Part shown: positions 47,806 through 53,244 of the stretch, piece by piece
Layout: each line of letters starts with the position of its first letter
Position numbering within the stretch: the stretch's first letter is position 1
Source: Candidatus Sumerlaea chitinivorans
GTDB taxonomy: Bacteria; Sumerlaeota; Sumerlaeia; Sumerlaeales; Sumerlaeaceae
Length of the DNA stretch: 64,000 nucleotides
Assembly: GCA_003290465.1 (NCBI GenBank)
Contig: CP030759.1
Location: forward strand, 2,740,572-2,804,571
Direction of reading: 5' to 3'
Program-made: the position numbers and the translations under genes
Notes under the pieces: generated by a model
The model's input: only the letters and a program-made list of their open reading frames with translations
Told to the model about the DNA's origin: nothing
Databases searched by the model: none

Positions 47806-50800
47806 GTCGCGCCCCGCGCGGGCGCGTGGATTGAAACACTCTGTGCTTGCCTCGATTTTGGGCGTTGCACAGTCGCGCCCCGCGCGGGCGCGTGGATTGA
47901 AACCGTGCAGACGATATTTGAGTATTTGCCCCACGCCGTCGCGCCCCGCGCGGGCGCGTGGATTGAAACACCTCGACAACTACCGGATTACCAATCACCA
48001 TCGTCGCGCCCCGCGCGGGCGCGTGGATTGAAACATTCGGCATGGAAAAGCTATCGATATTATCCGTGTCGCGCCCCGCGCGGGCGCGTGGATTGAAACG
48101 CGAAATGAGTTCCATATAGCCAGACTCAGTTATGGTCGCGCCCCGCGCGGGCGCGTGGATTGAAACCAGCGTAGAGCCGGCCAATGGAGCGTATGGGGGC
48201 GTCGCGCCCCGCGCGGGCGCGTGGATTGAAACGTGGGCGTTTCTGTGCGATATGACGGGCTTGCATCTGGTCGCGCCCCGCGCGGGCGCGTGGATTGAAA
48301 CACGTAGAGTGCGACCTTGGGGAATCCCGCAAAGTGTCGCGCCCCGCGCGGGCGCGTGGATTGAAACATCCGGCCCATATGACTCGTGCGCTGACCGTGT
48401 TCGTCGCGCCCCGCGCGGGCGCGTGGATTGAAACCAGTACGGCTGGCAAAACACGGCGTGTGCAGGTGGTCGCGCCCCGCGCGGGCGCGTGGATTGAAAC
48501 CTCGTAGTAGGTAGGCGGCCCGCGTCAGCGACCGAGTCGCGCCCCGCGCGGGCGCGTGGATTGAAACCTTAGCCGCGCCGCGCAGCCCCTGCCCCCCTGC
48601 GGTCGCGCCCCGCGCGGGCGCGTGGATTGAAACGGCCTGCCTTGTATACGGTTGAGGAGCTCGACGAGGCGGTCGCGCCCCGCGCGGGCGCGTGGATTGA
48701 AACCGCGTAAAGAAAGGGGTAGGCAAAAAGAGATCCCGGTCGCGCCCCGCGCGGGCGCGTGGATTGAAACCTTAGCCGCGCCGCGCAGCCCCTGCCCCCC
48801 CTGGTCGCGCCCCGCGCGGGCGCGTGGATTGAAACCTGCCCTGCCACTCGCACAAAAATGCCGTCATCAAGTCGCGCCCCGCGCGGGCGCGTGGATTGAA
48901 ACTCAGTGTGTGGATGATAACGCAATCGAGTGTCGCGAGTCGCGCCCCGCGCGGGCGCGTGGATTGAAACATGCCGGACATGAGGAGTAAATAACCAAAC
49001 AAGTGTCGCGCCCCGCGCGGGCGCGTGGATTGAAACCCGGTGAGTCCCAGAGAAGCAATGCGCAGATGCGTCGCGCCCCGCGCGGGCGCGTGGATTGAAA
49101 CTTGTTTTCCTGGTGATTTATTTAGGTCATTCGGTGTCGCGCCCCGCGCGGGCGCGTGGATTGAAACTAACCGCATCATCACACCTCCTCTGCTTTCTCA
49201 GTGTCGCGCCCCGCGCGGGCGCGTGGATTGAAACTCTGGGACTCGCCGGCAAGCTCCGCCGAGCGCAGCGTCGCGCCCCGCGCGGGCGCGTGGATTGAAA
49301 CGCGTGTTTTGGGTGTAGTTCTGTTCGTGTGTGAAGGCGTCGCGCCCCGCGCGGGCGCGTGGATTGAAACGTCACCACTACTCCCCCACGCTTTGCCCAG
49401 CGAAGTCGCGCCCCGCGCGGGCGCGTGGATTGAAACGGTCAACCCGCGCAACAACCAACCAATTGCAAAACGTCGCGCCCCGCGCGGGCGCGTGGATTGA
49501 AACCCTCAACCTCATCCGCACCAAGGCCCAACACACGTCGCGCCCCGCGCGGGCGCGTGGATTGAAACCTTGTCAGTAATTACGAAGCCACACAGCTCGG
49601 CGTCGCGCCCCGCGCGGGCGCGTGGATTGAAACGTCTGAGATACCGATAGACGATAATGGTACAAGTCGTCGCGCCCCGCGCGGGCGCGTGGATTGAAAC
49701 CAGTGTTGGGGTGCTGCTGCAGCAGCGCAAGACCGGTCGCGCCCCGCGCGGGCGCGTGGATTGAAACAGCTGTCGAACCAAGCGGAGCTCACGGGGGAAC
49801 CCGTCGCGCCCCGCGCGGGCGCGTGGATTGAAACTGTGTGGTGGGACAACGTGAGCGACACCGACATGATCGTCGCGCCCCGCGCGGGCGCGTGGATTGA
49901 AACCCATATACAGCAGCTCATCTTTCAGACCAAGTGGTCGCGCCCCGCGCGGGCGCGTGGATTGAAACGCAACGAGTTGCCACTACCTGTTGGTGGCGAG
50001 ATGGTCGCGCCCCGCGCGGGCGCGTGGATTGAAACCTGGTGAAACAAAGCAAATCAAGGCGATTGCTGGGGAGTCGCGCCCCGCGCGGGCGCGTGGATTG
50101 AAACGTTGTGCACGATCCCAAAAGATCGTCGAAACTAGTCGCGCCCCGCGCGGGCGCGTGGATTGAAACTATAAAGATCGTCGAAACTACGAATGGAGGA
50201 AGGAGTCGCGCCCCGCGCGGGCGCGTGGATTGAAACCTGATGCGCTGCGGTCACGGCATAGACCGGGCGGGTCGCGCCCCGCGCGGGCGCGTGGATTGAA
50301 ACGCCGACAATGACGGCGAACTGCTCATCGATGACCGTCGCGCCCCGCGCGGGCGCGTGGATTGAAACACCGTGCCACGCATGCAAAGTCCGTAGCGACA
50401 AGTCGCGCCCCGCGCGGGCGCGTGGATTGAAACTTTTATAGTTGCGCACGATCCAAAAAGATCGTCGTCGCGCCCCGCGCGGGCGCGTGGATTGAAACCA
50501 GTTGTCTGCCTTCTCGGGACTTACGATGGTCCATGTCGCGCCCCGCGCGGGCGCGTGGATTGAAACGCTTCAGGAGCGGGCGGCGACCTATGTGGCGAAC
50601 TGTCGCGCCCCGCGCGGGCGCGTGGATTGAAACTCGTGCTATTATGCAGGTGTCAATAATGGATAGGAGTCGCGCCCCGCGCGGGCGCGTGGATTGAAAC
50701 AACGCGCAGGAGTTGCTGTCGACGATAGCATGCAGTCGCGCCCCGCGCGGGCGCGTGGATTGAAACACGGGTTAATCTGACAAACGATTTGGTAAACGTC

Positions 50801-53244
50801 GTCGCGCCCCGCGCGGGCGCGTGGATTGAAACTTGGGGTTCTTGAACCAAGCACATGGATCTGTGTTGTCGCGCCCCGCGCGGGCGCGTGGATTGAAACG
50901 CCGTTAGCAATGGGTAGTCCGAGCGGGGTAGTGCGTCGCGCCCCGCGCGGGCGCGTGGATTGAAACCCACGCTTACGCTCAACCACCACGCCAAACCTCA
51001 ATACCGTCGCGCCCCGCGCGGGCGCGTGGATTGAAACTTCTGTTTTGCGCCCCCAACGCAGAAGATAACTGGTCGCGCCCCGCGCGGGCGCGTGGATTGA
51101 AACCATCTAATGTCTCCGTACTCTCAACTGATCTGTCAGTCGCGCCCCGCGCGGGCGCGTGGATTGAAACTGTACGGAAGCCCTGGACCTACAAGAAACC
51201 AACCGCGTCGCGCCCCGCGCGGGCGCGTGGATTGAAACTGTCGCTCCCATGGGTTACCAACCGAAGCAAGAAGTCGCGCCCCGCGCGGGCGCGTGGATTG
51301 AAACTCCACGCGTATCCGCAAGGCATGGCAGTTACGGTTGTCGCGCCCCGCGCGGGCGCGTGGATTGAAACCGCATACGAGGAGGCTATGACGTAAACGA
51401 ATTCGTCGCGCCCCGCGCGGGCGCGTGGATTGAAACTCATGTTACGCTCACCAGCGGCGTACTGTTATCGTCGCGCCCCGCGCGGGCGCGTGGATTGAAA
51501 CAAACGGCATAGCCGCTCGGCATATAGCGCGCACGGACAGTCGCGCCCCGCGCGGGCGCGTGGATTGAAACGTGTCCGCGGCAACGTCTCGCAAGCGCCG
51601 AAGCGTCGCGCCCCGCGCGGGCGCGTGGATTGAAACACCGCAGAGCTGTCTTACCGTCACTTCCCCCAGCCGTCGCGCCCCGCGCGGGCGCGTGGATTGA
51701 AACCCAAGCTGCGCAGTATCGGCGTGCGGCGGCTGGTCGCGCCCCGCGCGGGCGCGTGGATTGAAACAGGCCGAAAACGGCCACTAAAAAACAACAGGAG
51801 GCATGTCGCGCCCCGCGCGGGCGCGTGGATTGAAACGACGGTTGCGTTGATCAAGAGTTTGGGGCAGATTGTCGCGCCCCGCGCGGGCGCGTGGATTGAA
51901 ACAAAAATGGTGCCACTACTGTAGCAACAGTTGGAGCTGTCGCGCCCCGCGCGGGCGCGTGGATTGAAACTACCGCCGTTCTCAGCGATCTCAAAAATGT
52001 CTCCAAGTCGCGCCCCGCGCGGGCGCGTGGATTGAAACATCTCACATGCTACAACTTCACGTTCATCAATAACGTCGCGCCCCGCGCGGGCGCGTGGATT
52101 GAAACCTCTAGCATCATATACTTTCTTGAAAGCATCAAGTCGCGCCCCGCGCGGGCGCGTGGATTGAAACCCTCACTATCAGGCACGCCGTCGTTATCCG
52201 CATCCCGTCGCGCCCCGCGCGGGCGCGTGGATTGAAACGGTGCGGCGATGGTGACTACTTGGTGTATGATGCAGTCGCGCCCCGCGCGGGCGCGTGGATT
52301 GAAACGCACCTGCAAATAATACGCAACACCCGCCCACACAGTCGCGCCCCGCGCGGGCGCGTGGATTGAAACGCGGCTATCCCAATATATGCTTGCCTCA
52401 TCAATGCACACGTCGCGCCCCGCGCGGGCGCGTGGATTGAAACACAGATCTGCCGCCACTGGACCGCCTCTGTGACGCCGTCGCGCCCCGCGCGGGCGCG
52501 TGGATTGAAACACACCGGGGCGGTTTCATGCCCCGAAGGCATTAGTCGCGCCCCGCGCGGGCGCGTGGATTGAAACCGCCGTATCGCGCCCCACGGCACT
52601 ACCGCAACTGTCGCGCCCCGCGCGGGCGCGTGGATTGAAACATACACGTGTAATACACGCGGGGGTGTCGAGGAGTGGGTCGCGCCCCGCGCGGGCGCGT
52701 GGATTGAAACGTACGTCATCGATGCTTCCGGGCGGCCCGTCGCGGTCGCGCCCCGCGCGGGCGCGTGGATTGAAACTATCCGGCCTGCCCGCGCGCAAGC
52801 AGCATTGGCTTCGTCGCGCCCCGCGCGGGCGCGTGGATTGAAACCAGGCATGTCGAGGGCAATAATGAGGCGGGCCCAGTCGCGCCCCGCGCGGGCGCGT
52901 GGATTGAAACTATCCGGACTCCCCGCGCGCAAGCAACATTGGTGTCGCGCCCCGCGCGGGCGCGTGGATTGAAACAACAAGACCATTAACAATGCGGATA
53001 AATGTATGACGTCGCGCCCCGCGCGGGCGCGTGGATTGAAACCCCCCGGGGTATGGTCGGGGGGGCGAATCAGAACGTCGCGCCCCGCGCGGGCGCGTGG
53101 ATTGAAACGACGCCGCAGCCATCGCCTTCGAGACTGTCGAGCCCGTCGCGCCCCGCGCGGGCGCGTGGATTGAAACGGCATCGCAACAACCATATGCCCC
53201 ACCAGGGCTTTAGTCGCGCCCCGCGCGGGCGCGTGGATTGAAAC
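47806..53244 (+). CRISPR. CRISPR array, 82 repeats, type I-C-like
   Basis: By direct count there are 82 copies of a 32-bp repeat and 81 spacers. The first repeat is 47806-47837 and the last 53213-53244. All copies appear identical. The repeat begins GTCGCGCCCC and ends TGGATTGAAAC. Positions 3-9 and 15-21 form a 7-bp stem with a 5-base loop. Cleavage after the stem would leave an 11-nt 5' handle UGGAUUGAAAC, as described for Cas5d in type I-C. Spacers are 32-39 bp, mostly 33-36. No cas gene lies in the window. Open frames inside the array are artefacts of the repeat. Confidence 0.97.

Follow-up and report, generated by a model that had tools for sequence, protein, structure and literature searches.

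The window array A2

We analyzed a stretch of 64,000 nucleotides from Candidatus Sumerlaea chitinivorans (hereafter the window), corresponding to positions 2740572-2804571 of a genome of 3,289,105 bases (3.29 Mb) assembled as one contig. The window harbors a long array of clustered regularly interspaced short palindromic repeats (CRISPR), termed A2:

47806-53244, plus strand: array A2, 82 repeats and 81 spacers, defined by exact matching and by the repeat hairpin

All 82 copies of the repeat, GTCGCGCCCCGCGCGGGCGCGTGGATTGAAAC, are exact and lie on the plus strand, and both the count and the coordinates reported for them in an initial annotation of the window proved right. The repeat is 32 nucleotides (nt) long and identical in 82/82 copies, whereas the 81 spacers, of 32-39 nt each, are mutually distinct (81/81), with spacers 12 and 15 being the most alike. 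No extra repeat copy was found at up to 6 mismatches on either strand of the rest of the window. The computed fold of the repeat comprises a stem of 7 bp and a loop of 5 nt, followed by an unpaired 11-nt 3' tail, TGGATTGAAAC, which bears out the I-C-like hairpin and 11-nt 3' segment described by the initial annotation. A repeat of ~32 nt with a hairpin and an 11-nt 3' tail ending in ATTGAAAC is the arrangement found in type I-C systems, and the anatomy of the A2 repeat fits type I-C because the 5' handle left by I-C Cas5d is also 11 nt, as given in PMC5965380. The annotation had also noted the absence of cas genes near the array. This holds for the whole window: none of the genome-wide matches to Cas5d (1), Cas1 (3), and Cas8c (1) falls inside it, and the PADLOC Cas models matched 0/10 of the open reading frames flanking A2.

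The type I-C cas operon

The initial annotation had predicted that an unlinked I-C operon serves A2. Searching the rest of the genome with Cas profiles, we found a complete type I-C operon, cas3-cas5-cas8c-cas7-cas4-cas1-cas2, at ~2666976-2674968 on the minus strand, upstream of an adjoining five-repeat array (A1) that has an identical repeat and shares the leader of A2. The operon lies on the chromosome that carries A2, not on a separate replicon, but at a distance: ~113 kb from A2 and ~159 kb from a third array, A3, all on the one contig. The raw sequence alone had correctly predicted an unseen cas operon, and the possibility that no I-C operon exists to serve A2 is ruled out by the complete one in the genome.

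All seven proteins of the operon exceed the cut-offs of curated models (Cas3 core and HD domains, Cas5d, Csd1, Csd2, Cas4, DVULG-type Cas1, and Cas2). The signature protein of type I-C, Cas8c/Csd1, is a 659-amino acid protein that scores 361.7 bits with TIGR01863 (cut-off 218.65). Cas5d scores 149.7 bits with TIGR01876 (cut-off 85) and matches solved I-C Cas5 chains over nearly its full length, and Cas1 matches solved Cas1 proteins across most of its length. Cas3 is a single open frame, in which we recognized by eye what we take to be the HD, Walker A, and DExH-type motifs. As in other type I-C systems, Cas3, Cas7, Cas4, Cas1, and Cas2 are all there and unbroken. A genome-wide profile search returned one copy each of Cas5d and Csd1. 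The genome-wide search with PF10040, the sole Cas6 model tried, gave no match for Cas6, which is expected because Cas5d processes the CRISPR RNA (crRNA) where Cas6 is lacking; the presence of Cas5d together with this result is again typical of type I-C. With the same seven genes in one operon, a repeat with a hairpin and an 11-nt tail, and Cas5d with no Cas6 match, the system is one more case of an established kind and not a new type, although its window array is large and neatly kept.

Three arrays with one repeat and one leader

In the genome, with up to 3 mismatches allowed, the repeat is present in 190 copies, 190/190 of them exact. They are spread over three arrays, so that the check for other arrays with the same repeat, suggested by the initial annotation, added two to A2 (arrays in genome coordinates, leader in window coordinates):

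2666429-2666727, minus strand: array A1, 5 repeats and 4 spacers, adjoining the I-C operon
2834081-2840898, minus strand: array A3, 103 repeats, ending in an extra repeat broken after 23 bases
47567-47804, plus strand: leader common to A1, A2, and A3, from a 240-nt leader query

A3 is located some 40 kb beyond the window array, and the two remote arrays hold 184/188 of the I-C spacers (including the spacer before the broken last repeat of A3). The 240-nt leader query matched exactly three genomic places, each directly before an array, with 89% and 81% identity to the cas-adjacent copy. Among the three arrays, the upstream flanks are 83-89% identical over ~270-280 bases including the first repeat; no homology of the flanks was detected past the far end of the leader upstream, and none downstream. 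A2 thus has the same leader and repeat as the array adjoining the I-C operon. The leader is the site at which Cas1-Cas2 insert spacers, and therefore the same machinery should have access to all three arrays. A2 is one of three matching arrays, and taken together, these findings make it very probable that all three are fed by a single ordinary I-C operon, ~113 kb from A2.

Among 60 related genomes, the repeat (up to 2 mismatches) is present in none (1/61 counting the genome itself), and Csd1 is present in 10 (11/61 counting its own). The nearest Cas8c elsewhere is 44% identical and comes from a metagenome-assembled genome of Planctomycetota.

Related spacers and apparent parallel growth of the arrays

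We compared all pairs among 247 spacers, comprising 187 I-C spacers flanked by exact repeats, a further one that precedes the broken repeat of A3, and 59 from the array of a type II locus that adjoins the I-C operon (60 repeats of 36 nt with ~30-nt spacers, 2680083-2684008). At a local alignment score of at least 15, 21 pairs were related, compared to means of 0.4 and 0.3 pairs (maxima 2 and 1) in two sets of 20 randomizations of the spacers. Eight of the 21 pairs are cross-array, and in these the mean difference in relative position is 0.14 of the array length vs. 0.33 in permutations (p 0.0046, an approximate value, because two of the pairs share the spacer A3_010, so that the eight are not fully independent, and because the age direction of the type II array was assumed from its degenerate far repeat). 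Since related spacers in different arrays sit at similar depth, the arrays appear to have grown in parallel. The A2 spacers that bear on repeated sampling are the following:

48568-48601, plus strand: spacer 12, from an invader site common to A2 spacer 15 and A3 spacer 10
48771-48803, plus strand: spacer 15, from the site of spacer 12, with the C run longer by one C
52777-52812, plus strand: spacer 75, same start and strand as spacer 77, with differences that are synonymous in one reading frame
52911-52943, plus strand: spacer 77, partner of spacer 75

A2 spacers 12 and 15 and A3 spacer 10, which sample one site, all fall within the fifth of their array nearest the leader. When the cut-off was relaxed to a score of at least 14, 11/23 related I-C pairs had a common start (to within 1 nt) and strand, an enrichment that is partly a detection effect, because alignment scoring favors fully overlapping pairs. 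When all frames were checked, one frame kept the peptide unchanged in A3_091/A3_095 and in A2_075/A2_077, which suggests that each pair derives from homologous coding sequence of diverged viruses; in A3_051/A3_081, one residue changes in the best frame. Because one site was acquired again at an identical base from diverged relatives, the arrays are a useful record of a host repeatedly meeting a virus family.

By eye, A2 spacer 55 and A3 spacers 38, 45, and 53 have in common a TGTTA-rich, iteron-like sequence that does not look coding and is perhaps a replication or regulatory site of an invader.

The decayed distal end of A2

Beyond the leader-distal end of A2, repeat identity drops sharply, from 82 perfect copies to copies that are about two-thirds identical:

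53289-53320, plus strand: relic repeat, 21/32 positions
53375-53406, plus strand: relic repeat, 20/32 positions
53440-53471, plus strand: relic repeat, 24/32 positions, compared to 22 for the best match in 40 Markov sequences of 58 kb
53504-53535, plus strand: possible fourth relic repeat, 19/32 positions, which alone is not above chance

The best chance match per Markov sequence (n = 40) ranged from 19 to 22. Sites with at least 20 matches are rare elsewhere (2 in window positions 1-47700; in a nearby 98.6 kb, 3 on one strand and 1 on the other), yet three occur here within 190 bases, and the three relics are therefore very likely real remains of repeats. The sharp step from intact to relic repeats could be explained by loss of the stretch in between, or by a pause after which the array grew again.

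Source of the spacers

The protospacer-adjacent motif (PAM) expected next to I-C protospacers is TTC. Besides the eight upstream readings taken from overlapping spacers, two sub-threshold pairs outside that count were inspected by eye, with A3_086 vs. A3_098 giving another TTC and A3_098 vs. A3_099 giving TTT. The spacers of A2 and A3, compared in distant mode with 50,697 phage records, yielded weak matches only, apart from multi-piece matches to two unannotated records, which are themselves probably array-like. Spacer patterns scanned against IMG/VR matched in 0/8 cases, and a 24-amino acid peptide read from the spacers had no match.

Self-targeting of the host was considered in 212,572 bases around the loci, out of the 3.29 Mb genome, with two patterns additionally searched genome-wide. 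With the arrays masked, 246 spacers gave 329 matches compared to 286 for one shuffle, and self-targeting near the loci was not retained as an explanation. The best self-match, A2_013 (30 bases at 83%), beats the best of the shuffle but is not convincing. The two genome-wide patterns matched only the arrays themselves.

Proposed mechanism and alternative explanations

In the proposed mechanism, Cas1-Cas2 together with Cas4 would recognize the leader and first repeat at all three arrays and insert new spacers at the leader end, which is the left end of A2. A2 would be transcribed rightward, and Cas5d would cut each repeat at the base of the hairpin, leaving the 11-nt tail as a handle, so that the predicted 5' handle of the crRNA is UGGAUUGAAAC. 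The crRNA would then join the I-C Cascade and direct Cas3 onto invading DNA. Both long arrays would be filled in parallel, being exposed to the same invader families.

Several points weigh against this reading. Transcription of A2 and processing of its crRNA are inferred only, and of a simple scan of the leader for sigma-70 promoters and terminators, which returned nothing, the sigma-70 part counts here. The expected PAM is unsupported, with TTC upstream in 1/8 of the readings from overlapping spacers, whose neighbors come from variant viruses, and no protospacer or source virus was found in the phage-record and IMG/VR searches. Equal use of the three arrays does not explain why A1 has only 4 spacers vs. 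81 and 103. The shared spacer A3_010 and the assumed type II direction also count on this side, as they soften the test of parallel growth.

The best surviving alternative, which we nevertheless regard as improbable, is that A2 is a frozen archive that was filled formerly and gains no more spacers, perhaps silent, while another array is live. The distal relic repeats do show that part of the locus is old, and the cas-adjacent array, with a leader of its own, could be the active site. However, the intact repeats of A2 are all identical, and next to the first repeat the leader has hardly changed from one array to another. In addition, the spacers that sample a common site (12 and 15 in A2, 10 in A3) are near the leader in both long arrays, and the very short A1 looks the least used of the three. 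A2 as a dormant orphan was rejected on its identical repeats, the common leader, and the spacer pairs at similar depth.

It is very unlikely that A2 serves, or is filled by, the adjoining type II system or another effector instead of the I-C machinery. The cas9-cas1 locus does adjoin the I-C operon, and some targets are common to both systems (A3_046 with C9_014, A3_086 with C9_057), but the longer repeat and ~30-nt spacers of type II differ from the 32-nt I-C repeat and 32-39-nt spacers of A2, whose identical repeat and leader are found beside the I-C operon. Although long identical repeats are hard to assemble, there is hardly any chance that the number or position of the repeats is an assembly artefact (for instance, through repeats being collapsed or duplicated, or a single array being divided), given that all 81 A2 spacers differ, that the flanks of the three arrays differ beyond the leader, and that the genome is one contig.

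Feeding of all three arrays by the single I-C operon also agrees with what is described for other genomes in PMC12814883, where arrays sharing a repeat are updated about equally at any distance from cas. That source further reports that remote arrays tend to be the shorter ones, in type I-C as well, and that arrays of more than 50 spacers are uncommon, the 50-100 band being called small in number and the maximum being 587. As in the multi-array genomes with one repeat and one cas operon treated there, the repeat is identical, the leader is common, and the remote arrays are apparently used regardless of distance. This genome thus agrees with that account on distance-independent updating and departs from it on remote arrays being shorter. 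The sizes of A2 and A3 are no record in that source, because 81 and 103 spacers fall within or just above the 50-100 band. The genome is also unlike the known I-C pattern in that the array beside cas is very small and the remote ones contain almost all of the spacers, and it offers a clear example of two very long arrays far from cas that seemingly grew in step while the cas-adjacent one stands at 4 spacers.

Genes flanking A2

The following genes on either side of A2 are not part of the system:

44953-45891, plus strand: ABC transporter permease-like gene, the closest left gene with a family match
53771-55045, plus strand: aminotransferase class I/II gene, right of A2

Further to the right, window positions 55989-57407 on the minus strand encode a response regulator with a sigma-54 activator domain. 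PADLOC matched this protein to RtcR-type CARF proteins, and it is probably not a defense gene because the match covers mainly the common AAA and helix-turn-helix part.

The adjoining type II locus

The type II locus encodes a 1045-amino acid Cas9, divergent from cas3, and a Cas1. A 113-amino acid open frame occupies the cas2 position, and Pfam gave no match for it. We call the locus II-C by its layout, not by a subtype model. Between cas3 and cas9, on the minus strand, lies a candidate trans-activating CRISPR RNA (tracrRNA) with an anti-repeat and a strong terminator hairpin (fold z -6.4), at L032:13290-13385 in the local coordinates in which L032:13114-13260 equals genome 2675113-2675259.

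The A3 spacer A3_022 (genome ~2839465-2839484) aligns with 19 bases of the type II repeat apart from one extra base, and it also matches the tracrRNA anti-repeat, extra base included. Its similarity score is 17, compared to a best of 14 in 100 random spacer sets, and its source sequence was not found in the IMG/VR scans; genome-wide, at up to 3 mismatches, the only match to its 20-nt core was the spacer itself. A3_022 may derive from an RNA anti-CRISPR or from a foreign type II locus, or the similarity may have arisen by chance, given the many comparisons made. One CRISPR system might guard another here, with an I-C spacer directed against an invader's mimic of the type II repeat/anti-repeat, possibly an RNA anti-CRISPR acting on the adjoining Cas9, although we consider this a long shot. 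The thrice-sampled site may adjoin such a mimic, because the 7-nt end of A3_022 matches the start of A2 spacers 12 and 15 and A3 spacer 10. Repeat mimics in viruses are described for RNA anti-CRISPRs (Racrs, solitary repeat units) in PMC10651486, and A3_022 resembles both the host type II repeat and its anti-repeat, as a repeat-mimicking invader RNA would. In contrast to the Racrs presented there, the putative mimic is known here from a spacer fragment alone, and the same picture would be expected from an ordinary foreign type II locus.

Part of the I-C cas1 (2668024-2668170) recurs as a 147-bp copy (98%) at 2675113-2675259, between cas3 and cas9, and this copy constitutes the third, partial Cas1 match. 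In addition, a 105-bp direct duplication (99%), corresponding to sequence at the 3' end of an asparagine synthase gene, brackets the type II locus from cas9 to the array (L032:13018-13122 and 2684103-2684207), as if the type II module had been inserted or duplicated recently.

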